A stretch of 33,842 bases of DNA, taken from the NCBI GenBank assembly GCA_017556585.1, contig JAFYMP010000103.1, forward strand, positions 1 to 33,842, given 5' to 3'. A model generated the notes under the pieces. That model worked only from the letters and a program-made list of their open reading frames with translations, was not told the origin of the DNA and ran no database searches. The DNA comes from Bacteroidaceae bacterium. GTDB taxonomy: Bacteria > Bacteroidota > Bacteroidia > Bacteroidales > Bacteroidaceae. The position numbers were made by a program, and so were the translations under genes. This document shows, one piece after another, positions 3,225 to 19,048 of this stretch (its first letter is position 1; each line of letters starts with the position of its first letter).

Positions 3225-4262
3225 CTATGACAATGATAAATATAGACGCAATACCTCTTCATCTACACGTATCTCCGGGTTATATACAACCCGTTTCCTC
3301 TCAAGTATTAAAGGATAGACCTTTTTAAATAAATCATCTGCATCGCCCGTTTTATACAATACAGCCTCTTTTGGTCTTGTACAAACATCGCTGGCCACTA
3401 CGGGAGTACCAAATTGAAGTGCCTCCTTTACTGAAACGCCCTCCATATCTGACATTGTGGCACGTATAAAGAGATCTGTATGTGACCATACTTCGAAACC
3501 ATTTACCGGAGAATTTACTATAAAACAGAAATAATCCGAAAGCCCCAATTCATCGATTCTCGACAAACATTTGCCAAAATAATCATTATCAAATATTTCA
3601 GAGATACAAAATACCATTCCTACATCTAACCGTTCTTCGTTAATCAGACGGTTCATCAAATGAATCAATTGGTCTATACCATACAAATCGCCAAATACAT
3701 TGTTTATTACCCTATGGGCATTAGACGAAATTGTATATTCATGTTTACTGATAAAATCCTCTATTTCTGTTGTCAGGCCTTTCATTTCACCCTCTTCAGG
3801 TGCCATATAGGTTGGCAACAATACTATTTTTTTCTTATTAATATCATATTTCTCGCAAAGCAGTTCAGTGTAAGTGGGATCATTGAATATAATGTACTTT
3901 ACACAACTAAACAGCCGGTTAATCACTTTACGTTTCCAGCCGTCAAGCAGTACAATACGACGATTATGAAGCGTAAGTACTATATGGTGTTTCCTGCCAA
4001 AAATATAGAGCAAAAACAACAGATAAAAATTAGTAAACTGAGCATGAATAATTTTCTTGCCAACAAATGGCAGTTTCAAGAACTCCCATAGCCTATTCTT
4101 AACGCTTATTACACATTGGGTTTCATATCCCGACTGTGCAAAATCACGCATTACTACATCATTATCTTTAGCATGCATTTTTTCTACTAAACGCTTGCAA
4201 TATATCGATATTCCTCCTATTGGAGGCGGATAAAAGCCCCATATTTCCTTTTTCATCGTCAT
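3225..4262 (-). CDS. Glycosyltransferase family 4 (GT-B fold)
   Basis: 345 residues. The N-terminus carries the glycine-rich acceptor loop seen in GT4 enzymes (YPPPIGGISIYCKRL, from residue 11). The C-terminal half has the nucleotide-sugar-binding region DMEGVSVKEALQFGTPVVAS (272-291), where Asp272 and Glu280 sit at the EX7E spacing, with Asp in place of the first Glu. It should add one sugar to the lipid-linked repeat unit on the cytoplasmic side of the membrane; donor and linkage cannot be read from sequence. Its ATG overlaps the stop of the upstream GT2 gene by 4 bases (ATGA), which indicates translational coupling. A second in-frame ATG two codons in is an equally possible start. Confidence 0.88.
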   Translation of the reverse strand: MTMKKEIWGFYPPPIGGISIYCKRLVEKMHAKDNDVVMRDFAQSGYETQCVISVKNRLWEFLKLPFVGKKIIHAQFTNFYLLFLLYIFGRKHHIVLTLHNRRIVLLDGWKRKVINRLFSCVKYIIFNDPTYTELLCEKYDINKKKIVLLPTYMAPEEGEMKGLTTEIEDFISKHEYTISSNAHRVINNVFGDLYGIDQLIHLMNRLINEERLDVGMVFCISEIFDNDYFGKCLSRIDELGLSDYFCFIVNSPVNGFEVWSHTDLFIRATMSDMEGVSVKEALQFGTPVVASDVCTRPKEAVLYKTGDADDLFKKVYPLILERKRVVYNPEIRVDEEVLRLYLSLS

Positions 4263-5197
4263 ACAAAATAGGTATTATCAATAACCAATGCCTCGAAATC
4301 CTCTTTACTAACTCCTTCTTTTATACGAGCATCTTTCCACAAGCGCTTCATTAGAACCAATGTTCTTGATAAAGAGTGAGATGACATATAAAAATGCTTT
4401 ATACAAAACGGCAAATTAACCAAAGCCCATGTATAATAGAAGAGTCCGGACTTATTAATACGGATATCTATAAATCTATTCAGATAATGCATATACACCT
4501 TACCCAATCCATACATTTTATTGCCGGAAGCTCCCACCTTATGATAAATCAGCGAGTTGAGTACACACGCCATCTGCACTTTCTGTTTTTTCATACGTAG
4601 TGACAGTTCAAAGTCCTCTTCGCCAAAAAAGAAACGCTCTGTAAGAAGTCTATTCTGTTCATCAAGTAGTTCCGGGTAAAAATACAATGCACAGCCGGTT
4701 ACAAATGAAACAGACAAATGGTCTGTCTCCCTCACTGCCATATCCGGTTGTTCTGAACAATAGTATTTACGGAAACCAAACAATAGTTTACCTCCACAAT
4801 TCCATACTTTCTGTTTATCGTAAAAATAATTAATCTTAGGAGTAAGTATCCGATATTGGGGGTTGCGTTTGGAAAAAGCCTGCAAAGAGACAAGAAAATC
4901 AGGGCTTACCTCGGTATCATTATTGAGTAGCAGATAGCTGTCGGGTGTATCCTGACCTGCTACAGCTATTCCCTTGTTATTACCACGAGCAAAACCATAA
5001 TTTCTATCCAAAGCTATTAGCCGTGCATCAAGTTTCTTATGCTCCCCTATCCATGTTTCAATTCGGGATACAGAATCATCTGACGAACCATTATCGACAA
5101 CATAGATGCGAAAATCGCCATCTGCCTTCATCAACGAATTTAGACAGGCCAGCGTATCGTCAGCTCCATTCCAATTCAATACAATAATTGCCGTCAT
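4259..5197 (-). CDS. Glycosyltransferase family 2 (rhamnosyltransferase-like)
   Basis: 312 residues from the ATG at 5197. The frame is open to 5272, but the GT-A core begins only at MTAIIVLNWNGADDTLACL, and 5197 gives a 4-base ATGA overlap with the flippase gene, so I take that start. VVDNGSSDDS (33-42) and the DXD-like NNDTEVSPDF (from 92) mark the nucleotide-sugar and metal site. GEEDFELSLRMKKQ in the second half is the ED-motif region usual in this group. It is a likely inverting transferase acting on the lipid-linked repeat unit. The C-terminal segment (VNLPFCIKHFY) is hydrophobic and may touch the membrane. Donor sugar unknown; rhamnosyltransferase-like is a family resemblance only. Confidence 0.88.
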   Translation of the reverse strand: MTAIIVLNWNGADDTLACLNSLMKADGDFRIYVVDNGSSDDSVSRIETWIGEHKKLDARLIALDRNYGFARGNNKGIAVAGQDTPDSYLLLNNDTEVSPDFLVSLQAFSKRNPQYRILTPKINYFYDKQKVWNCGGKLLFGFRKYYCSEQPDMAVRETDHLSVSFVTGCALYFYPELLDEQNRLLTERFFFGEEDFELSLRMKKQKVQMACVLNSLIYHKVGASGNKMYGLGKVYMHYLNRFIDIRINKSGLFYYTWALVNLPFCIKHFYMSSHSLSRTLVLMKRLWKDARIKEGVSKEDFEALVIDNTYFV

Positions 5198-6444
5198 ACA
5201 CGTTTGTTTATACGATACAAACTTAAGATACAAAGCAAAAATAATAATATTTCTGCTAAAGACATAGCCCATGCAGCTATTTTTACTCCATAGAGTGGCA
5301 AAAACGACAACATGAATAAAACGCTGAATACCCCAACAATCATCACAGACCTGAAGAAATATCGTTGTCCATTCATATTTATCAATCCCACAATACCTAC
5401 TAGATAGTTAATCTCTCCAAATAAGATAACCAATGTCATGATGCGGACTAATGGTATTGAATCTGTATAACCTTCACCACACAAAATATCCGTTATCTGT
5501 GGAGCAAATATATACACAAATGCCGTAATAATTATAACGACTACTGAAAATGGCAGTGCTATTTTCTTGAGCAACGCAACATTTTCATGCAGACTTTTAT
5601 TCTTAAAACGCAGGCTCAGATGTGGGAATAATGCCTGTGCAGCAGGTGATATTATTGACTGGAACCCTTTTACCACTTTTTCTGCCGCAGAATATATTCC
5701 TACTACTTCGTCTGTTACGAACTGTTTAAGGATTATAACATTGGCATTTCTATATAAATTCATGCCAAAAGTTGAACCGAACACCTCTTTTCCCTCTTTT
5801 AGTTGTTGTTTAACATCTCCCCATTTAACTCTGTGCAAACGTATATTAAATTGCTTATATACCAACATTATGCTAAGAATACCGGACAACAGATATCCAC
5901 AGGAATTCAATAAGATAAGTAGATAATAATCATTTGTTTCATGAATAAAAACAAATATCAGTATAGTAAACAGAATCTTAGAAGAGGCATTAACTATCGT
6001 CATATACTTCATTCTTTCCAAGCCTTGAAAAAGCCATACAGGTGTAAAGATATCGCCCAAAACCATTCCCAGACTAAATACAAACATCAAAGTTCCTATC
6101 TGGTCTTTGAAAATCCAACGATTAAACAAAAACAATAGTACTGTAATAACCGTGGCTATCAAAGATTTTCCTGCTATTACCGAGTTGAATATATTTGATA
6201 CGGCTTTACTATCTGTACGAGATTGAGAGATCTGTTTTGTTGCAGAAAAATTGAATCCATACGTACTAAACATTATTACGTATTGCGCTATTGCATATAT
6301 ATATGAATATGCACCATAATTCTCCGTACCAATTATTCTTAGAATGTATGGCAATGTTACGAAAGGCAACAATACATTCAAGCCATTCAGTATGGATAGA
6401 GAGAAGAAATTCTCAATCTGTTGTTTATACCTACTTAATTGCAT
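5194..6444 (-). CDS. wzx: Wzx-type polysaccharide flippase (MOP superfamily)
   Basis: 416 residues, nearly all hydrophobic segments in the 12-14 helix pattern of the oligosaccharide flippases. The start MQLSRYKQQIENFFSLSILN followed by NVLLPFVTLPYILRIIGTENYGAYSY is the family's characteristic first helices and loop (compare RfbX/Wzx). It should move the undecaprenyl-linked repeat unit across the inner membrane. The gene overlaps the end of the polymerase gene upstream by 14 bases and the GT2 gene downstream by 4 bases. The assignment as flippase is firm from fold and context; wzx is used as a functional name because sequences diverge widely. Confidence 0.9.
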   Translation of the reverse strand: MQLSRYKQQIENFFSLSILNGLNVLLPFVTLPYILRIIGTENYGAYSYIYAIAQYVIMFSTYGFNFSATKQISQSRTDSKAVSNIFNSVIAGKSLIATVITVLLFLFNRWIFKDQIGTLMFVFSLGMVLGDIFTPVWLFQGLERMKYMTIVNASSKILFTILIFVFIHETNDYYLLILLNSCGYLLSGILSIMLVYKQFNIRLHRVKWGDVKQQLKEGKEVFGSTFGMNLYRNANVIILKQFVTDEVVGIYSAAEKVVKGFQSIISPAAQALFPHLSLRFKNKSLHENVALLKKIALPFSVVVIIITAFVYIFAPQITDILCGEGYTDSIPLVRIMTLVILFGEINYLVGIVGLINMNGQRYFFRSVMIVGVFSVLFMLSFLPLYGVKIAAWAMSLAEILLFLLCILSLYRINKRV

Positions 6445-7690
6445 GATTCGAACTAATTTGTGGTTCTTTACTGAATATCAATGAATCTGCAAACCATAAA
6501 ATCAAGACTATGACAGGTAGTTCAAAAACAATCAAATGGAAATAGTAGAATTCGAACCATCCCATAGCCAATAATCCACATTCAAAAAAGTATATGGTGT
6601 ACATATATATATTATTCCATTTCAAAGCCAACAATCTTAAAATGTACATAATAGTACTGGACAACAATATATACCATATAAACTGCCAACCATTAGTATA
6701 TATGAACAAAGTTCCAAAAAAAGTGCGCACATTTGTTAAATTGATACCTGAATGAAAATAATATGGATTTATTGGACTTACTAATTCACCGCTACCTGTA
6801 ATTACATTTATCAGGTTAATAACAGGTGCCCACAAAATCTCAAATTCACCAGAATCGGGAAAGCCTAACTGCATATCTATACTTAATCCATAGGTACCAC
6901 TAACCAAATAATGAGAAAAGTGTTCAACAACATAAGTAAACATCTCTGAAGTTACCTCATCTTTATTTGCAGCAATCATAGGTAACACCAGATATGCGAA
7001 TATAAAGATTAAGAATCCTCCAAATAACAGATACAGAAAAAAAGAGAGTTTTAACTGTACTTTTCCGGTAAATAATCTCAATGACATACCTGCCACGATA
7101 GGTATAATAATCCACCCCTTGACATTATAACATATACTTACAAAACAGAACATCAGTATTATAACCCATAGCCACACACTCTTTTTATCTACATAATAGA
7201 CTGCCATAATCAACAAAGGAATTGTTAAAATACGCAGATGTCCCCACAAACCTTGCCCTGCATAATTCAAGCCAAAATCATCTGAACCTATATAGAAGTT
7301 GGTGGTTCCCATAAAGCTATAAGTTCTATACACAAAGAGAAGACACAATAGAACAGACAGCCATATCAAAAAAGGTGGCATTGTGCGCTCCTGGATTGTA
7401 TTATTGCTTAATTTTATATCTGTTTTTTGAGTAATAAATGCTAACGACAGACTGGGTATAGCAAATATCAAAAGACCTACTATCCAAAATATAATGCTGG
7501 GATAGTAAAATTCAACAAAACCTAATCGGCCTGACAAGACTAATGACAGTATAAGTATTATTATATATGGCAGCATCAGAAAATTAAGAGGAGTGTAAAC
7601 AGTTCTCCAGGCTTTGATTTCCAGATAACAAAGCACAACTACCTCTATGAAGAAAGTTATCAGTATAAGTATATTGTGAAAACTACCCAT
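6431..7690 (-). CDS. wzy: Wzy-like O-antigen/oligosaccharide repeat unit polymerase
   Basis: 419 residues with about ten to twelve predicted membrane segments and one longer periplasmic loop (roughly residues 245-330, from NKDEVTSEMF to the segment around FFGTLFIYTNGW). No soluble domain is present. Wzy polymerases have little sequence conservation, so the call rests on topology plus position between the flippase gene and the chain-length gene, where the pathway needs a polymerase. It would join repeat units at the periplasmic face. The N-terminus MGSFHNILILITFFIEVVVL is itself the first helix. It lies 29 bases after the Wzz-like gene. Confidence 0.8.
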   Translation of the reverse strand: MGSFHNILILITFFIEVVVLCYLEIKAWRTVYTPLNFLMLPYIIILILSLVLSGRLGFVEFYYPSIIFWIVGLLIFAIPSLSLAFITQKTDIKLSNNTIQERTMPPFLIWLSVLLCLLFVYRTYSFMGTTNFYIGSDDFGLNYAGQGLWGHLRILTIPLLIMAVYYVDKKSVWLWVIILMFCFVSICYNVKGWIIIPIVAGMSLRLFTGKVQLKLSFFLYLLFGGFLIFIFAYLVLPMIAANKDEVTSEMFTYVVEHFSHYLVSGTYGLSIDMQLGFPDSGEFEILWAPVINLINVITGSGELVSPINPYYFHSGINLTNVRTFFGTLFIYTNGWQFIWYILLSSTIMYILRLLALKWNNIYMYTIYFFECGLLAMGWFEFYYFHLIVFELPVIVLILWFADSLIFSKEPQISSNHAIK

Positions 7691-7719
7691 AGAGCAAAAA
7701 TATATAATACTTCTGATTA

Positions 7720-8778
7720 CTATTTATCTATAATACGGTCCTTTAGTATTATCCAAAAAGCTGTACCAAAAAAAGCAAGGAAAACATATAACAATCCCAT
7801 CATCATCTTTTTTGGGGAAGATGCTTTATATGGAAGAATCGGAGGCTCCACAACCACCACCACAGGAGTACTTTCCAACAGTTTTGAACGAGTTATCTCT
7901 AATTGTTGTGCCAATTGATTATATACATTGAATGCTACCTCCTGTTCATTCTGGAGTCTGTCCATTTCTATCTGATATTGCATCTTTGTTATATTCTGAT
8001 GCTTATCATAATACTCTGCATACGCCTGCTTGGCTTTTAAATATTTTGACTGCGATTCACTAAAGATTCTTTCAGTCTGTTCATAATCTGATTTTGCCTT
8101 TGCGGTTCTGTAATCCTTTATATATTCTTGCAGTTTATCAGAAACTACCTGAGTCATTTTTGCTGCCACATGAGGATCCTGCATTGTAACAGATAAAGTT
8201 ATAACACTTGTTCCCTTATCTACGTTTACACCTATTTTTTCATTTAGTGAACGCATAACCAACTGCTGGCGTCTTGATAGAATATAATTATTATTTTTAA
8301 CAGATGGTAAAACTGAATCTACAGAAAGGTTGTTCTTCATTTTTTGTATCATTTTACCAGGTGCTCCAATTATTGAAATCCACCAAGGATCTCTCTGATA
8401 CTCCTTAATGTATTCATATAAGGTAACATTGATTGTATCTCTTTTATATTTCGCAGCAACTTCTGTTTCCAAAAGTTCACACAAAAAAGGAACAGACGAA
8501 ACAATTTGAGGGTATAATTCGGGATATAAAGCATCTTCACTTCCAGAACCCAAATCTATTCCCGCCATAGAAGCTAAAGAACTAATTGAACCAGACATAG
8601 ACATTCCTGATGAAAATTCAGGAGCTAATACTACTGTCGAAGTATATTCTTTAGGAATACTATAAGCTACTATTATGGAAAGCAAACCACCAATAAAAAC
8701 ATTAATTATCAGGCGTTTGCGTTTACTCCACAACAACATAACAATTGAGATAATATCTCTTAGACCATTATTCTCCAT
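7720..8778 (-). CDS. Wzz/chain-length determinant-like polysaccharide co-polymerase
   Basis: 352 residues. A short cytoplasmic N-terminus leads to a membrane helix (LIINVFIGGLLSIIVAYSI), then a large periplasmic part that includes a long coiled coil (about 220-300, rich in Q, E, K and A) and a second helix near the C-terminus (MMMGLLYVFLAFFGTAFWII) preceded by a proline-containing stretch (PPILPYKASSPKK). This is the Wzz fold. There is no fused tyrosine kinase domain and no Walker motif, so it is the short type, unlike Wzc. It should set polymer length together with the polymerase and the SLBB export protein, whose gene ends 5 bases upstream. Confidence 0.9.
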   Translation of the reverse strand: MENNGLRDIISIVMLLWSKRKRLIINVFIGGLLSIIVAYSIPKEYTSTVVLAPEFSSGMSMSGSISSLASMAGIDLGSGSEDALYPELYPQIVSSVPFLCELLETEVAAKYKRDTINVTLYEYIKEYQRDPWWISIIGAPGKMIQKMKNNLSVDSVLPSVKNNNYILSRRQQLVMRSLNEKIGVNVDKGTSVITLSVTMQDPHVAAKMTQVVSDKLQEYIKDYRTAKAKSDYEQTERIFSESQSKYLKAKQAYAEYYDKHQNITKMQYQIEMDRLQNEQEVAFNVYNQLAQQLEITRSKLLESTPVVVVVEPPILPYKASSPKKMMMGLLYVFLAFFGTAFWIILKDRIIDK

Positions 8779-8783
8779 CTCTC

Positions 8784-11270
8784 TTATCTAAACAGGTTCA
8801 ACAATGCTATTACAACTGTTGCCAACGATGCTGACGTTGAACTTAAACTGAGAACTTCTGATGTAGTCATACCATCACGTTCACTCTTTGAAGGCACCAC
8901 TATTTCACAACCAGGCTGGATCAGTTTTGATGATGCTTTTCTGGCTCTTGCCACAGAACCGTTCATATATATAACGTACGCTTTACTCTTTTTTGCACTT
9001 TGAGTATAGCCACCGGCCTTATCTACATAATACTTAAGACGCTTGCCCTGGTTGTATGATACTGTATTTGAATACATCACTTCACCATTCATTTTTACAG
9101 TATTTGTAAATGCAGGAACTACAATACGATCACCGTTTCTCAAAGTTATATCTTCATCGCTGCCCGGTTTGTCCATAGCCTTCTGCAGATCTATACCTAC
9201 ATAGAATGTTGTTGCCATATCGATTGATTCTATAGCCAGTGAATCATCGGCAGCAATTATCTTGGCAAGATCCTTCATACGCATACGCTCTTCTTCAGTC
9301 ATAGTGCGTTCCAGACGTGCTCCTTCAGGATATGCTTCGGATGTAAACAGACCTGCACGAACAATCAAATCGCTGAGACGTTCGTTGTTTGTTTTTAGTG
9401 AATAGTTACCCGGGAAGAGCACTTCACCATCTACAATTACACGTTTAATCTCCGTATTACCCGGACTCTTGCGAACATATATTTCATCAAAAGGTTTCAG
9501 GGTAAAATTGTTATCCTGAATTTTCAGTTTTTCATCTATACTGAAAGAGAATATCTCTGATATGGTATCTGATGCAGAAACTGCATTTTTATTGTTTGTC
9601 TTACGTACCACATCAACCTTTGCAATAGAAGCCGTCTCCTTCAAACCACCTGCCTGCAGAATCAGATCCTCAATCTGCATATTATCGGCATACTGGTATT
9701 TGCCGGGGAAGAGTACTTCGCCATATATATGCAATGTCTGTACCTCTCTTACGTCGAACAGGCTTGGTATAAACAGAACATCACCGTTACGCATCTCTAT
9801 ATCGGCAGTTTCACCTTTCAACAAAGCTTCAATATCAACAGCCTGATTGCTTAAAGTCTTATCCGGGTTAGTTCTGCTCAGCAATGCACGTCCCATAAAT
9901 GCATCCTCGCGAACACCACCTGCAAATTCAACAGCTTTCAGCACACTGTTTATTGCATCGTCTATCTGGAACTGACCTGGACGATAAACAGCACCACGCA
10001 CTTCGGCCATATTTGCAAATGTTGTCTGGATGGAATCCACATAAACTGAATCACCATCAGCCAGCAAGAATGATGCCTGCTGGTCTGTAGCAACAGTAAA
10101 TATCTGACGTTGTTTTTCGCCCATTCTTATTACGCGGATATCCTTTTTGTATGCATCTGCAGAAAGTCCGCCTGCATATTCCACCAGATTCTGCAGTGTT
10201 TCTGTAGATTTCATCTCATAAAGCATTGGGCGACGTATGCTACCCTCTATTACCACCATCTGCTTGTATGGTGAAACTATAATTACATCATTATCAGTAA
10301 GACGTATATCCTTGGACAACTTACCATTCTGCAAATAGTCATAAATATCAATTGATGCTATCTCCTTGTTATTTCTGTAAAGCTTAACATCACGCATTGT
10401 ACCTAAATCATTTACACCACCTGCCATATACAGTGCATTGAAGATGGTTGCAAATGATGAAAGCACGTAAGTTCCGGGATTTTCCACTTCGCCCATAACA
10501 TTTACCTGAATAGAGCGTGCCTGACCAAGTGTCAGACTTATCTGTGAACTATTGTTTTCTTCATTCAGACCTGCATCTATCTGTGAAAAGACACGTTTGA
10601 TATGTTTATTTGCTTCAGCAACAGTCATTCCATTCAGATAGACAGGACCTAAGTTTTCCACCATAATATTACCATCGGGCGATATAATTTCACGCACAGT
10701 CATCTGGGAAGCGCCCCATATATCGATAATAACTTCATCGCCTGCACCCAGTTTATAGTCGGCAGGAGTAGCTATATTTACAGATGGTTCAAATGTCAGA
10801 TCCTTGTTCTGGAAAATGCTATGACCATAAATTTCACGTTTCAATGGCATAAACGACTGTTTCAGAAGATACATTGAATCTACAAACAGGAACATGGATT
10901 CATTATACATCAGCTGAAGTTTTTCCTCTTCAGACATTTTGGTTTCAGCCAATCTGTCATCCTCTGTTTGAATAAGATTAAGAGATGATGTACTATTGTT
11001 TCTGGTACGTGACTGAGAATTTGTTGCTTCCGCCATTGTCATTCCCAAAACACCGGTAGATTTCTGCTTTTCATACTTTTCACGCAGAGACTGTAACTGC
11101 TGGATAGAGACTCCCCTGCGATTGAGTTCATACACAATCTGTTCCTGAGAAACGCCTTTCTCCTGTTGTTCAGCTACAAACTGAATAATTTTATCTTCTG
11201 ACATCTGTGCAGATAGAGTCAGAACAGCTGAACATACCAGCACAATCGACAAAAACAATCTCTTTATCAT
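8784..11270 (-). CDS. Outer-membrane polysaccharide export protein with six SLBB repeats (Wza-like)
   Basis: 828 residues from the ATG at 11270. The frame is open to 11303, but that would overlap the priming transferase gene, and MIKRLFLSIVLVCSAVLTLSAQ is a clean signal peptide start. After a helical N-terminal region (MSEDKIIQFVAEQQEKG) comes a poly_export domain (DYKLGAGDEVIIDIWGAS). Six SLBB repeats follow, recognisable by the G-E-V-x-x-P-G-x-Y pattern: VMGEVENPGTY, VIEGSIRRPMLYEM, VRGAVYRPGQF, YGEVLFPGKY, VDGEVLFPGNY and MNGEVMYSNTV. The C-terminus has a hydrophobic stretch (TSASLATVVIALLNLF). It should form the export channel. It is much longer than Wza (about 380 residues), as is usual for Bacteroidales homologues. 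No lipobox is visible. Confidence 0.92.
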   Translation of the reverse strand: MIKRLFLSIVLVCSAVLTLSAQMSEDKIIQFVAEQQEKGVSQEQIVYELNRRGVSIQQLQSLREKYEKQKSTGVLGMTMAEATNSQSRTRNNSTSSLNLIQTEDDRLAETKMSEEEKLQLMYNESMFLFVDSMYLLKQSFMPLKREIYGHSIFQNKDLTFEPSVNIATPADYKLGAGDEVIIDIWGASQMTVREIISPDGNIMVENLGPVYLNGMTVAEANKHIKRVFSQIDAGLNEENNSSQISLTLGQARSIQVNVMGEVENPGTYVLSSFATIFNALYMAGGVNDLGTMRDVKLYRNNKEIASIDIYDYLQNGKLSKDIRLTDNDVIIVSPYKQMVVIEGSIRRPMLYEMKSTETLQNLVEYAGGLSADAYKKDIRVIRMGEKQRQIFTVATDQQASFLLADGDSVYVDSIQTTFANMAEVRGAVYRPGQFQIDDAINSVLKAVEFAGGVREDAFMGRALLSRTNPDKTLSNQAVDIEALLKGETADIEMRNGDVLFIPSLFDVREVQTLHIYGEVLFPGKYQYADNMQIEDLILQAGGLKETASIAKVDVVRKTNNKNAVSASDTISEIFSFSIDEKLKIQDNNFTLKPFDEIYVRKSPGNTEIKRVIVDGEVLFPGNYSLKTNNERLSDLIVRAGLFTSEAYPEGARLERTMTEEERMRMKDLAKIIAADDSLAIESIDMATTFYVGIDLQKAMDKPGSDEDITLRNGDRIVVPAFTNTVKMNGEVMYSNTVSYNQGKRLKYYVDKAGGYTQSAKKSKAYVIYMNGSVARARKASSKLIQPGCEIVVPSKSERDGMTTSEVLSLSSTSASLATVVIALLNLFR

Positions 11271-11280
11271 AAATCTTAAT

Positions 11281-11934
11281 TTAAAATTTCTTACCACTAA
11301 CAATTGACAACACTGTCTTTACAATAATCTTCAAATCCAGCATCAGAGATCTGTTATCAAGATAATCCAGATCGTATTCCAAACGTTTCAGCATCTTATC
11401 CATTGTATCGGTGTATCCGTTGTAGATAGTTGCATACGATGTTATTCCGGGACGCATCAAATATACGTAGTGATAATCGTCTGTCTCTCTATTGATTTGA
11501 TCTATAAAATACTGACGTTCAGGACGTGGTCCTACAAAAGACATGTCGCCCTTCAAAACATTCCAAAGCTGTGGAAGTTCATCTAAATGATGAGCACGCA
11601 GGAAGCGTCCGAATGGAGTCAAATGTCTGTTTCTCTCCTCTTCAAGACGTGGAATACCATCTGATTCTGCATTGACATGCATTGTTCTGAACTTGTATAT
11701 CATAAATGGCTTTCCTTTGTAGCCTATTCGCTCCTGCTTGAATATTATCGGTCCATCATCAAAGAGTAATACTATAGAAAATATCAACATCAATGGGGAG
11801 AGCAAAAGCAGCCCCATAAAGGAAAACACTATATCAAAAGTACGCTTCAGGAATCTCTGAGACTTTGACATCGCATCAAAATGTTCTTTCTCTTTTCGAT
11901 TACCCTTATAGCTGTTTATCTTGTAATTCTGCAT
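11281..11934 (-). CDS. Undecaprenyl-phosphate sugar-1-phosphate transferase (priming enzyme)
   Basis: 217 residues. One membrane helix (about 33-56, FDIVFSFMGLLLLSPLMLIF) is followed by the catalytic domain with the hallmarks of the bacterial sugar transferase family: KQERIGYKGKPFMIYKFRTM, HHLDELPQLWNVLKGDMSFV and GPRPERQYF. It transfers a sugar-1-phosphate from a UDP-sugar to undecaprenyl phosphate and so starts the repeat unit. The protein is the short, single-helix form without the long N-terminal membrane region of WbaP. It is the first gene of the polysaccharide operon, with about 145 bases of leader after the predicted promoter. No NusG-like (UpxY) antiterminator gene is seen upstream; the next gene upstream is fabD on the other strand. 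Confidence 0.93.
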   Translation of the reverse strand: MQNYKINSYKGNRKEKEHFDAMSKSQRFLKRTFDIVFSFMGLLLLSPLMLIFSIVLLFDDGPIIFKQERIGYKGKPFMIYKFRTMHVNAESDGIPRLEEERNRHLTPFGRFLRAHHLDELPQLWNVLKGDMSFVGPRPERQYFIDQINRETDDYHYVYLMRPGITSYATIYNGYTDTMDKMLKRLEYDLDYLDNRSLMLDLKIIVKTVLSIVSGKKF

Positions 11935-14745: not shown

Positions 14746-17700
14746 TTATTTGAATTCATCCCAACTCTTAATTGGAATATCGTTCACATCGAGAGTACAG
14801 AATGCATTGATAAAGGCATCTGCCAATCTTGCATTTGTGATAAGAGGAATATTCAAATCTACTGCTGCACGGCGTATCTTGTAACCATTTGATAACTCAT
14901 GCTGTGTAAGATCCTTTGGAATATTAACCACCATATCTATCTCCTTATTATGCAACATCTCTAATGCCTGTGGGTGCTGTCCCTCTTCACTTGGCCAATA
15001 AACGCGTGTGTTCTGCACACCATTTTCTGTCAAGTATTTAGACGTACCACCTGTTGCATATAGAGTATATCCCTTTTCGCCCAACAGTTTTGCAGCATCA
15101 AGCATATCTGCTTTCTGTTTTGCAGAACCTGTTGAAAGCAGGATATTCTTTGCAGGAATACGATGACCAACTGATAGCATTGATTCAAGAATTGCATAAC
15201 GTGAATCATCGCCCAAACAACCTACTTCACCGGTAGAAGCCATATCTACACCAAGTACAGGATCGGCTTTCTGCAAACGGTTGAATGAGAACTGTGAAGC
15301 TTTGATACCCACATAATCCACATCGAACAAACTCTTTTCAGGCACCTCTACTGGAATACCCAACATAACCTTTGTAGCTATTTCAATAAGATTGATTTTC
15401 AAAACCTTACTTACAAATGGGAAGCTACGGGATGCACGCAAGTTACATTCAATAACTTTAATATCGTTCTCTTTTGCAAGATACTGAATATTGAAAGGAC
15501 CGCTTATATGAAGTTCTTTTGCAATCTGACGGCTTATACGTTTAATACGTTTTACTGTCTCAACATATAGTTTCTGTGGTGGGAACTGAATTGTAGCATC
15601 ACCTGAATGCACACCCGCAAATTCAATATGTTCACTTATAGCGTATGCAATTATCTCACCATCCTTTGCAACAGCGTCCATTTCCACCTCTTTAGCGTGT
15701 TCAATAAAGCGGCTTACAACTACAGGATGCTGTTTAGATACATCGGCAGCCAACTGCAAGAAACGTTCCAATTCATCCTGATTGCTGCATACATTCATGG
15801 CAGCACCTGAAAGAACGTATGAAGGACGTACCAAAACAGGGAAACCTACTCTATCTATAAATTCTTTGATGTCGTCCATTGATGTCAACTCACTCCATTC
15901 CGGCTGATCAACACCAATTCTGTCCAACATTGCCGAGAATTTCTCTCTGTCTTCTGCGTTGTCAATACATTTGGCAGATGTACCCAGAATAGGAACATTC
16001 ATACCATCCAGACGCATAGCAAGGTTGTTTGGAATCTGTCCACCGGTTGATACAATTACACCGTATGGATTTTCCAATTCTATAACGTCCATTACACGTT
16101 CAAACGACAATTCATCAAAGAACAGACGATCACAAACGTCATAGTCGGTAGAAACTGTTTCCGGATTGCAGTTAATCATAATATTTCTGTAACCCTCCTT
16201 ACGCACTGTATTCAATGCCTGAACACCACACCAGTCAAATTCTACAGAAGAACCAATTCTGTATGCACCCGATCCAAGTACTATGATAGACTTCTTGTCG
16301 TTCATAAATGGTATATCGTGAGCACAACCATTATAGGTCATATACAGATAGTTGGCCTGAGCTGCATATTCACCACCCAAAGTATCAATCTGTTTAACGT
16401 ATGGAAGAACGCCTAACTCTTTACGCAAGTTACGAATTTCCAGGATACCCTGTTCTGAACCCACTTTCTGTTCAATACCTATAGCACGAGAAATCTGGAA
16501 ATCGGAGAAACCGGCACGTTTCGCCTTTTTAAGCAGATCTTTGCTAAGATTTTCAATACCGTTTACAGCGTGCAATTCAGCTGATATATCTGTAATTTTC
16601 TTCAAACGATTCAAGAACCACTTATCAATTTTTGTAAGTTCATAAATCTTGTCTATTGAATAGCCACTTTCAAGAGCCTGACTGATAGCAAACATACGCT
16701 TATCTGTTGGTTCTTTCAGAGCCTGATCCAGATTCTTGAATGTAAGTGTCTTATTTTCAACAAAACCGTGCATTCCCTGGTTAATCATACGGATACCCTT
16801 CTGAATAACCTCTTCGAATGAACGACCTATAGACATAACTTCGCCCACAGATTTCATACTTGAACCAAGTTCTTTATCAACACCATGGAATTTTGAAAGG
16901 TCCCAACGAGGAATCTTACAAACCACATAGTCAACAGATGGTTCAAAGAAATCTGTTGTAGTCTTTGTTATTGAGTTCTTCAATTCATACAGGCTGTAAC
17001 CCAATCCCAATTTACAAGCCACAAATGCAAGTGGATAACCGGTAGCCTTTGAAGCAAGAGCCGATGAACGGCTAAGACGGGCATTAACCTCAATTACACG
17101 ATACTCTTCAGACTGTGGATCGAAAGCAAACTGAATGTTACATTCACCTACTATGCCCACGTGACGAGCTACACGTGTACCTATTTCACACAGTTTCTGA
17201 ACTTCGTGTGCAGTCAGTGTCTGTGTTGGAGCAACAACAATACTTTCACCGGTATGAATACCTAATGGATCGAAGTTCTCCATACTACATACTATGATGC
17301 AGTTATCATTTTTATCACGAACAATTTCAAATTCAATTTCCTTCCAGCCCTTCAAACTCTTCTCTACAAGAATCTGTGGTGAGAAAGCAAAAGATTTTTC
17401 GGCCAACTTGTTCAATTCTTCTTCGTTATCGCAGAAACCCGATCCAAGTCCGCCAAGTGCGTATGCTGAACGAATAATAACAGGATAACCCAACTCTTTT
17501 GCAGCCGCACGAGCATCTTCCATACTCTCTACAGCATGTGATTTAATGGTCTCTACTCCTATTTCATCAAGACGTTCAATAAAGAGTTCGCGGTCTTCAG
17601 TATCCATGATAGCCTGAACCTGAGTACCCAAAACCTGAACATTATATTTTTCAAATACACCTGCCTGATACAGAGATACACCGCAGTTCAATGCTGTCTG

Positions 17701-17976
17701 ACCACCAAATGCCAACAAAATTGCATCCGGACGTTCCTTTTCAATAACTTTCTCTACAAAGAACGGAGTAACAGGAAGGAAATATACCTTATCGGCTACA
17801 CCTTCACTAGTCTGCACTGTTGCAATATTCGGGTTGATAAGAACAGTTTCTATGTTCTCTTCTTTCAGAGCTTTTAATGCCTGAGAACCTGAATAATCGA
17901 ATTCACCTGCTTCACCAATCTTTAGGGCACCAGAACCCAACAGAAGCACTTTGTTTATCTTATTTATATCGGCCAT
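14746..17976 (-). CDS. carB: Carbamoyl-phosphate synthase large subunit
   Basis: 1076 residues, the normal length. It starts MADINKINKVLLLGSGALKI and has two homologous ATP-grasp halves. Recognisable signatures include GGQTALNCGVSLY, VIRSAYALGGLGSG and ESIVVAPTQTL in the first half, and VLGSGAYRIGSSVEFDWCG, VSTGGQIPNNLA and LVRPSYVLSGAAM in the second. The last ~140 residues are the allosteric MGS-like domain (YTLYATGGTSKYL). It makes carbamoyl phosphate from bicarbonate, ammonia and two ATP for pyrimidine and arginine synthesis. It begins 7 bases after carA. All main catalytic features look intact, so it should work with free ammonia even if its CarA partner cannot release ammonia from glutamine. 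Confidence 0.97.
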   Translation of the reverse strand: MADINKINKVLLLGSGALKIGEAGEFDYSGSQALKALKEENIETVLINPNIATVQTSEGVADKVYFLPVTPFFVEKVIEKERPDAILLAFGGQTALNCGVSLYQAGVFEKYNVQVLGTQVQAIMDTEDRELFIERLDEIGVETIKSHAVESMEDARAAAKELGYPVIIRSAYALGGLGSGFCDNEEELNKLAEKSFAFSPQILVEKSLKGWKEIEFEIVRDKNDNCIIVCSMENFDPLGIHTGESIVVAPTQTLTAHEVQKLCEIGTRVARHVGIVGECNIQFAFDPQSEEYRVIEVNARLSRSSALASKATGYPLAFVACKLGLGYSLYELKNSITKTTTDFFEPSVDYVVCKIPRWDLSKFHGVDKELGSSMKSVGEVMSIGRSFEEVIQKGIRMINQGMHGFVENKTLTFKNLDQALKEPTDKRMFAISQALESGYSIDKIYELTKIDKWFLNRLKKITDISAELHAVNGIENLSKDLLKKAKRAGFSDFQISRAIGIEQKVGSEQGILEIRNLRKELGVLPYVKQIDTLGGEYAAQANYLYMTYNGCAHDIPFMNDKKSIIVLGSGAYRIGSSVEFDWCGVQALNTVRKEGYRNIMINCNPETVSTDYDVCDRLFFDELSFERVMDVIELENPYGVIVSTGGQIPNNLAMRLDGMNVPILGTSAKCIDNAEDREKFSAMLDRIGVDQPEWSELTSMDDIKEFIDRVGFPVLVRPSYVLSGAAMNVCSNQDELERFLQLAADVSKQHPVVVSRFIEHAKEVEMDAVAKDGEIIAYAISEHIEFAGVHSGDATIQFPPQKLYVETVKRIKRISRQIAKELHISGPFNIQYLAKENDIKVIECNLRASRSFPFVSKVLKINLIEIATKVMLGIPVEVPEKSLFDVDYVGIKASQFSFNRLQKADPVLGVDMASTGEVGCLGDDSRYAILESMLSVGHRIPAKNILLSTGSAKQKADMLDAAKLLGEKGYTLYATGGTSKYLTENGVQNTRVYWPSEEGQHPQALEMLHNKEIDMVVNIPKDLTQHELSNGYKIRRAAVDLNIPLITNARLADAFINAFCTLDVNDIPIKSWDEFK

Positions 17977-17983
17977 AGTCTAA

Positions 17984-19048
17984 TTAGAGTTTTGAGATAA
18001 AATCATCGTAGATAAAACTTACATCGGTATCAATCACATCCGATTCTGAATGGAACATAGTGCCCACCCAAGGTTTACGAGTGTGATATATACCCTCTAC
18101 AGAACCGTCGTGCAAGTTCTTCATATAGACCTTCCAGTGACCTACTATAGATTCCTCTCTTATTGCATAGTTATGATTCTGAGTTGTAATATAACAACGA
18201 TCAGTACCTGCCAACTGCACAGGTTGATTATGTGTATGATGACCAAACTTTAGTTTGTATGTATCCATACCTGCAGCAAGTCCAAGCAACAGACAACCCA
18301 TATCTATGCCAAGTACAGGCTTCTCAGACTTATCTGCCATTGCCTTCTGAATGATAGCGATAGTTTCACCGCAATAACTTGGGTTACCAGGACCGTTACT
18401 GATAAATAGTCCATCGTAATCCATCGAAGTAAAATCGTAGTTCCATGGCACGCGAACCACAGTTACATCCTGCTGCAACAAACAACGCAATACACTGGCG
18501 CGTATTCCACAATCCAATACTACCACTGTCTTTTCCTTACCCGGCTGGTATGTTATAGGTTCTGTGCAGGAAACCTTACTTATAAGATTTGTGTAAGAGT
18601 ACTCTGCTGGTTTTGGCATATCTTCAAACACTACTCTGGCTGCCATACAACCGTGTAATCTGATATGTTTAGACAATTCGCGAGTATCTATACCACTGAT
18701 ACCTACCACTTTTTCACGAATCATCCAATCTTCCAATGACTCTTTGGCATTCCAATGACTATAATATTCGCTATAGTCACTTACTATAAGAGCATTAACG
18801 TGAATATGGTCGCTTTCTGCATTTGTAACCAAGCCATATTCATCTTTCTCCATAGGTTGAACACCATAATTACCAATCACAGGATAGGTCATTACCAGTA
18901 ACTGTCCGTCTGACGAAGGGTCTGTCATAAGTTCCGGATAACCGGTCATACTTGTGTTGAACACCAATTCGCCACTTGTAGGCTGCTGATAACCAAAAGC
19001 TTCACCTTCAAAGCAGGTGCCGTCGGCTAAAATAAGTGATACTTTCAT
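17984..19048 (-). CDS. carA: Carbamoyl-phosphate synthase small subunit, catalytic cysteine replaced
   Basis: 354 residues aligning end to end with CarA. The N-terminal domain has VFNTSMTGYPELMTDPS and GISGIDTRELSKHIR; the class I glutamine amidotransferase domain has FISNGPGNPSYC, KFGHHTHNQPV and TTQNHNYAI. The nucleophile elbow is abnormal. The family has GICxGxQ; here it is GIDMGCLLLGL, so the catalytic Cys is Asp249 (codon 18304-18302), the following His/Asn is Cys252 and the Gln is Leu253. His333 and Glu335 remain (FHSES), but the usual HPEASPGP is otherwise lost. The frame is clean, so these are substitutions and not a frameshift. Glutaminase activity should be lost or much reduced, while the subunit may still bind CarB. 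Its ATG overlaps the stop of the purF-like gene by one base (TAATG). Confidence 0.93.
   Translation of the reverse strand: MKVSLILADGTCFEGEAFGYQQPTSGELVFNTSMTGYPELMTDPSSDGQLLVMTYPVIGNYGVQPMEKDEYGLVTNAESDHIHVNALIVSDYSEYYSHWNAKESLEDWMIREKVVGISGIDTRELSKHIRLHGCMAARVVFEDMPKPAEYSYTNLISKVSCTEPITYQPGKEKTVVVLDCGIRASVLRCLLQQDVTVVRVPWNYDFTSMDYDGLFISNGPGNPSYCGETIAIIQKAMADKSEKPVLGIDMGCLLLGLAAGMDTYKLKFGHHTHNQPVQLAGTDRCYITTQNHNYAIREESIVGHWKVYMKNLHDGSVEGIYHTRKPWVGTMFHSESDVIDTDVSFIYDDFISKL

Follow-up and report, generated by a model that had tools for sequence, protein, structure and literature searches.

A Bacteroidaceae clade in which a carbamoyl phosphate synthetase, in many genomes the only one found, has lost its glutaminase cysteine and probably uses free ammonia

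From what source does a carbamoyl phosphate synthetase (CPS) take its nitrogen when its glutaminase subunit has lost the catalytic cysteine? The question is raised by the stretch of DNA analysed here (the window, 33,842 nucleotides from a Bacteroidaceae genome), in which a purF-like gene (20928-19048), carA (19048-17984) and carB (17976-14746) form an apparent operon on the minus strand, with carA and carB as separate genes. The CarA of the window passes TIGR01368, the curated model of the glutamine-hydrolysing CarA, with 378.4 bits against a cut-off of 307.35. Elsewhere in the window, positions 3225-11934 hold an apparent polysaccharide export and glycosyltransferase cluster, judged from translations alone. 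The features of the locus and of the glutaminase site are as follows.

14746..17976, minus strand: carB, CPS large subunit, 1076 residues (TIGR01369, 1520 bits)
17984..19048, minus strand: carA, CPS small subunit, 354 residues, glutaminase site lost; intact frame; matches TIGR01368, PF00988 and PF00117
19048..20928, minus strand: PurF-like protein, first gene of the apparent operon, overlapping carA by one base; 115.7 bits (purF cut-off 350)
18281..18310, minus strand: nucleophile elbow GIDMGCLLLG, read as GGC ATA GAT ATG GGT TGT CTG TTG CTT GGA
18302..18304, minus strand: Asp249, codon GAT, equivalent to Cys269 in the alignment with E. coli CarA
18290..18295, minus strand: Cys252-Leu253, equivalent to E. 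coli His272-Gln273; Cys and Leu each in 32/32 distinct genus sequences
18170..18172, minus strand: Asn293, equivalent to E. coli Gly313; Asn in 32/32 genus sequences, Gly in 153/156 intact CarAs
18044..18052, minus strand: His333-Ser334-Glu335, equivalent to E. coli His353-Pro354-Glu355; His and Glu kept, Pro replaced by Ser in 32/32 genus sequences
18032..18034, minus strand: Ile339, equivalent to E. coli Gly359; Val or Ile in 32/32 distinct genus sequences, Gly in 155/156 intact CarAs

Cys269 and His353 are named catalytic positions of E. coli CarA (PMC6245113). Reading the minus strand and aligning it to E. coli CarA (NC_000913, the reference for residue numbering) places Asp249 (GAT, 18304-18302) at the nucleophile, as the initial annotation had proposed, and confirms its assignment of Cys252 and Leu253 to the positions of His/Asn and Gln. 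The annotation was also right that His333 and Glu335 (E. coli His353 and Glu355) are retained and that the frame is clean, since all 354 residues lie in one intact open frame. In copies fetched from other genera of the family the elbow reads GIC[ML]G[NH]QLL, and Gln occupies the position of E. coli residue 273 in 153 of 156 aligned intact CarAs. We take Gly313 to be a glutamine-pocket position and Gly359 an ammonia-tunnel position; the roles of all compared positions other than Cys269 and His353 are our assumption. A further position has changed from Tyr48 in E. coli to Ser46 in the window, and the adjacent Ser45 (E. coli Ser47) is kept. This change and those at Gly313, Pro354 and Gly359 are additional to the ones named in the initial annotation. 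Because His333, Glu335 and, in the window, Ser45 persist, the glutaminase site is not wholly erased.

The loss extends well beyond the window. Among 37 genomes searched in the window's genus, 34 contain an orthologue at 65-100% identity, and the elbow is readable in all but one of them, which is truncated at a contig end; in these 33, the nucleophile position holds Gly in 29, Asp in two, Glu in two and Cys in none. A sequencing error or frameshift is thereby ruled out, as the site is lost in 33/33 genus copies from separate genomes. The initial annotation had raised the question whether a clade shares the change; loss of the Cys is indeed common to the whole clade, whereas the specific Asp249 recurs in only two of the 33 copies. 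All 156 other aligned CarAs keep Cys269, His353 and Glu355. Of these, 57 come from other genera of the family (228 family genomes gave a match) and 60 from the order's other families (171 order genomes gave a match); 23 are second copies from the two genera discussed here and 16 are distant sequences. At a threshold of 1e-20, a CarA match is absent in 122 of the 289 order genomes with completeness of 90% or more and contamination of 5% or less (124/295 overall), so CPS may be missing or distant in many Bacteroidales. Among the matches listed from the open-access literature (with few subscription journals), no title or opening of an abstract mentions a bacterial CarA without its Cys.

A sister genus, g30, presents the same loss in two further forms. 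Eight of its 15 genomes contain only a separate Cys-less CarA, five contain a Cys-less CarA fused to CarB together with an intact carA, and two contain an intact carA only; one of the three matches in G163 is a fragment too short to reach the elbow. In the Cys-less g30 copies the catalytic His is replaced as well, by Ala in the separate form and, in the fused form, by Asn or in one case Cys. The position of Gly359 holds Arg in 5/5 separate copies and is still Gly in the three fused rows that reach this column, and two separate copies (L170 and L214) have Asn at position 252. Fusions involving an intact CarA also occur in the order: L146, L148, L150 and L160, from other genera of the family, join an intact-site CarA to about the first half of CarB (948-1001 residues), and L134 (1452) and L151 (1567) are CarA-CarB fusions with intact elbows. 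In the order search, the CarAs of G451, G318, G483, G516, G587 and G398 lie in long open frames of 1448-1481 residues, a length that matches a CarA-CarB fusion.

The codons at the nucleophile site indicate the order of events. They are GGN in 28 of the 32 distinct genus sequences, GAT in two and GAA in two, and TGY in the intact copies; Asp is one step from Gly, so the exchange of Cys for Gly probably came first and the Asp of the window later. With the active-site columns removed, the CarA tree places the Cys-less CarAs inside the vertical line of the family, and the stem branch of the genus is long (0.75 changes per column). Because long branches meet at this point, we set the CarA tree aside for the question of one or two losses and turned to CarB, which does not contain the trait. 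In the CarB tree (LG+G4 without a mixture model), the CarBs of the Cys-less CarAs form one clade with support of 100/99 (13 of 49 rows), and a quick CarB tree of 21 rows agrees on one clade. Two separate losses in the two genera are therefore not favoured; the Cys-to-Gly change probably happened once, in the ancestor of both. In the CarA tree and the quick CarB tree, the intact second copies of the two genera group apart from these in a clade of their own. The placing of g30 on CarB is odd, with the fused copies sister to the window's genus and the separate copies branching below, which may reflect transfer or a wrong genus label. Two divergent CarBs, 62-63% identical to that of the window, form a clade of their own in the CarB trees: L207:9681-12911 (G014), beside which no carA was found, and L129:5704-9069 (G106), which adjoins a carA-carB pair.

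The Cys-less CarA is under purifying selection. Its median dN/dS in the window's genus (simple Nei-Gojobori estimate, pairs with dS of 0.1-1.2) is 0.063 for the GATase domain and 0.073 overall, with 0.06-0.12 for g30. Constraint is stronger in the intact second copies (0.037 versus 0.073 overall); the intact family CarAs give 0.066 overall and 0.162 for the GATase domain, from a small number of pairs. No internal stop occurs in any genus CarA match listed. Intact CarAs have 74 columns with 97% invariance or more, and 22 of these are changed in at least one Cys-less group. In the window's genus the changes fall at the glutaminase site, with 10 of 24 columns there changed versus two of 49 elsewhere (Fisher p = 1.3e-4, with the Cys column excluded and with site segments of our own choosing). 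As a control, the intact second copies show changes in none of the 24 glutaminase-site columns. The Cys-less groups of g30 follow the same trend (p = 0.05 and 0.07). The partner subunit has been preserved: in 21/21 CarBs paired with a Cys-less CarA, the catalytic residues are kept at every listed position that is invariant in 44 other CarBs; two positions on the residue list used are variable in both groups of CarBs.

Many relatives carry a second, intact carAB alongside the Cys-less one, and others, one of them rated 100% complete, are without it. An intact carA is present in 20 genomes of the window's genus. In 15 others (G000, G001, G005, G012, G013, G015-G023 and G034), a Cys-less CarA was found without any intact CarA; among these, completeness reaches 100% in G018, 98% in G016, 97% in G021, 96% in G023 and 90% in G001. 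Each of the 15 has one CarB, the two matches in G005 being one gene in two frames. In that genome (contig L100) carA is whole, and both carB and the PurF-like gene are broken across two reading frames, a sign of assembly error or decay. The initial annotation had proposed looking for a second carA; none was found in the window's own genome, which is 82.8% complete. Single gene absences are weak, because both genera are represented by draft genomes, most of them 76-98% complete. Only an intact CarA was seen in G004 and G014 of the genus and in G065 and G241 of g30, so the Cys-less copy can be absent where an intact one exists; G009 showed neither. In G002 an intact carA was not seen, but a carB of the intact kind and gltBD are present in pieces at contig ends. 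Mere divergence of a spare copy is ruled out as the whole story, because the Cys-less CarA belongs to the vertical line of the family and no other CarA was found in 15 genus and eight g30 genomes.

The presence of an intact CarA goes together with glutamate synthase. Around the intact second carAB of the window's genus the gene order is gltB-gltD-dapF-dapL-carA-carB, often with glmS or purF next, and some g30 genomes have guaA and pyrG downstream of it. A strong glutamate synthase match was found in 19 of the 20 genus genomes with an intact CarA and in six of seven in g30. In G035, gltB is in two frames. No strong match was found in any of the 15 genus or eight g30 genomes with a Cys-less CarA only, G018 containing broken pieces alone. 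In G202, G265 and G065 of g30, gltB and carA are on different contigs, and the co-occurrence is therefore not only a matter of one operon. Left out of these counts were weak matches of about 20-25 bits, mostly just over the cut-off and in frames of about 500 residues, which occur in nearly all genus genomes and in 13 of 15 g30 genomes; we took them to be other proteins of similar fold. The pieces in G018 (L283:44-1634), one of them with stops, are 55-97% identical to a relative's whole copy, and the glutamate synthase gene of this genome appears to have been lost recently. The consumers of carbamoyl phosphate are present whatever the CarA: at least two carbamoyltransferase-family matches occur in 36/37 genus and 15/15 g30 genomes, with one in G012, which has only a Cys-less CarA. 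The two matches per genome fall into two score classes, from which we infer one enzyme for pyrimidines and one for arginine. In the genomes with a Cys-less CarA only, the enzyme containing it is the only source of carbamoyl phosphate that was found.

We propose that this CarA is probably a glutaminase-dead subunit kept for structure, and that CarAB makes carbamoyl phosphate from free ammonia, bicarbonate and two ATP. Ammonia is the suggested substrate because CarA is dead but selected, CarB is intact and no other CPS was found. The initial annotation had likewise suggested a CarA without glutaminase activity, serving as a structural or regulatory subunit, with ammonia coming from elsewhere, and had named vertebrate CPS I as the precedent; the clade-wide loss of the Cys, and a second carA not having been found in the window's genome, lend support to that suggestion. 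The Cys-less glutaminase half would be inactive, and CarA would still dock on CarB and stabilise it. NH3 would reach CarB from solution through a side entrance, an idea put forward for human CPS I. High ammonium in the gut may have made glutamine use dispensable. Many relatives with glutamate synthase carry a second CarAB that is presumably glutamine-competent; the lack of glutamate synthase in genomes with a Cys-less CarA only fits life at high ammonium. E. coli CPS variants with a blocked or perforated tunnel have lost glutamine use and are normally active with external ammonia, as cited in PMC4655335. The same paper describes human CPS I, in which the catalytic Cys is a Ser, as using ammonia and gives a separate ammonia entry path as a proposal. 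In E. coli, ammonia use is said to need very high, likely unphysiological concentrations (PMC6245113). Rumen ammonium is given as 4-70 mM (PMC5552732), and the nearest named records come, by their titles, from yak rectum, sheep and water buffalo stomach, and deer and horse faeces. An ammonia-dependent CPS at rumen ammonium is thus plausible.

Several other explanations have to be weighed against this proposal. Glutamine might still be hydrolysed by a relocated nucleophile, either Cys252, which is present in 32/32 genus sequences together with the retained His333 and Glu335, or Asp249 itself. We regard this as scarcely credible: most of the clade has Gly as the elbow residue and Asp occurs in two of 33 genus copies only, the Cys-less g30 copies are without the catalytic His and two of them (L170 and L214) have Asn at 252, the intact CarA L253 has a Cys at 252 next to the normal nucleophile Cys, and the positions of Gln273, Gly313 and Gly359 are changed as well. 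It is also highly unlikely that CarA is now useless and decaying, with CarAB dispensable and carbamoyl phosphate obtained from elsewhere or its products taken up. The long CarA stem of 0.75 changes per column, a dN/dS above that of the intact second copies, the split carB of G005 and the order genomes without a CarA match at 1e-20 (124/295), in which CPS is possibly missing, would agree with decay. Against it, the genus matches listed have no internal stop, median dN/dS is 0.06-0.12, CarB is conserved, two carbamoyltransferase-family matches are retained, and in G018 gltB decayed while carAB stayed.

A reuse of the altered site, which would bind another ligand and make CarA mainly a regulator of CarB, could account for new residues that are identical in 32/32 genus sequences (L253, N293, M331 and S334), as a reused pocket would show. 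We know of no ligand for the altered site, and the changed residues differ largely among the three Cys-less groups, a pattern more in keeping with loss than with a single new pocket; reuse seems unlikely to us. Equally improbable is that another amidotransferase, above all the upstream PurF-like protein, hydrolyses glutamine and hands the ammonia to CarB. The PurF-like gene overlaps carA by one base and was found in 12 of the 15 genus genomes with a Cys-less CarA only. The N-terminal Cys and the DD of a PRPP-type motif are conserved in all 44 aligned relatives, in which a Cys replaces the Asn of the PurF NGN. However, the PurF-like gene adjoins intact CarAs in many family genomes, and is therefore no compensation for the loss of the Cys. 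A match is absent in 24 of the 37 genus genomes searched, among them G018 (100% complete), G013 (83%) and G034 (79%), which have a Cys-less CarA only; as a general ammonia source the PurF-like protein is thus not favoured. The tunnel position Gly359 is moreover Val or Ile in the genus and Arg in the separate g30 copies, although those fused copies that extend to it still have Gly. For the lineage of the window itself, the PurF-like amidotransferase is a possible ammonia supplier.

The wider reading, which we hold to be reasonably likely, is that the only CPS of a bacterial lineage turned ammonia-only independently of vertebrate CPS I, within a wider move away from glutamine nitrogen suggested by the failure to find a whole glutamate synthase in the same genomes, and that the fusion in the sister genus reproduces the domain plan of vertebrate CPS I. 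The clade looks like a natural exception to glutamine as the physiological nitrogen donor, a role that a review gives for E. coli, and like a second, independent switch from glutamine to ammonia alongside that of vertebrates. Several stages coexist in it: loss of the Cys alone, loss of both Cys and His, and fusion of the dead CarA to CarB, as well as genomes that have an intact back-up copy and genomes in which none was found. This makes testable what role a glutaminase subunit plays after losing hydrolysis, and whether ammonia-rich habitats remove the need for it. As the curated model names the protein glutamine-hydrolysing, the nitrogen source given for carbamoyl phosphate, the common precursor of arginine and pyrimidines, is probably wrong in the annotation and metabolic models of these gut bacteria.

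Among known systems, vertebrate CPS I (human CPS1, PDB 5DOT/5DOU) is alike in that a glutaminase-like domain is kept but, judging by its residues in our clade, dead. The nucleophile Cys is replaced in both, by Ser in vertebrate CPS I and by Asp, Gly or Glu in the window's genus, and Leu at the position of Gln273 is common to human CPS1 and the CarA of the window. In contrast to the single polypeptide of vertebrate CPS I, carA and carB of the window are separate, with fusion in only five g30 genomes, and the enzyme of the clade is bacterial and biosynthetic. Because intact bacterial relatives surround the clade, we take its loss to be independent of that in vertebrates. We did not file the enzyme under CPS I (EC 6.3.4.16), a class that has N-acetylglutamate as its essential activator, since the window's enzyme does not have the single-chain form and its ammonia use is presumed. 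Human CPS I as the best PDB match of both subunits lends no support to the proposal, as the intact family CarA L111 finds the same match with 393 bits, versus 283 for the window.

The bacterial glutamine-dependent CPS (CarAB, CPS II; E. coli) is alike in genes, gene order, domains, CarB catalytic positions and CarA model score. Compared with E. coli CarAB, the window's enzyme is without the glutamine-hydrolysing Cys and much of the pocket, and has a bulkier residue in place of the tunnel Gly359. At that position, the E. coli CarA variant in PDB 1M6V has Phe, which we take to block the ammonia tunnel, and the window has Ile; unlike the CarA of the window, 1M6V is a laboratory mutant with its Cys intact. 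The carbamate kinase-like CPS of Pyrococcus is likewise a microbial source of carbamoyl phosphate without a glutaminase, according to PMC6245113 and PMC6022934. It differs in having an unrelated amino-acid kinase fold, with neither CarA nor CarB, whereas the clade described here has kept both.
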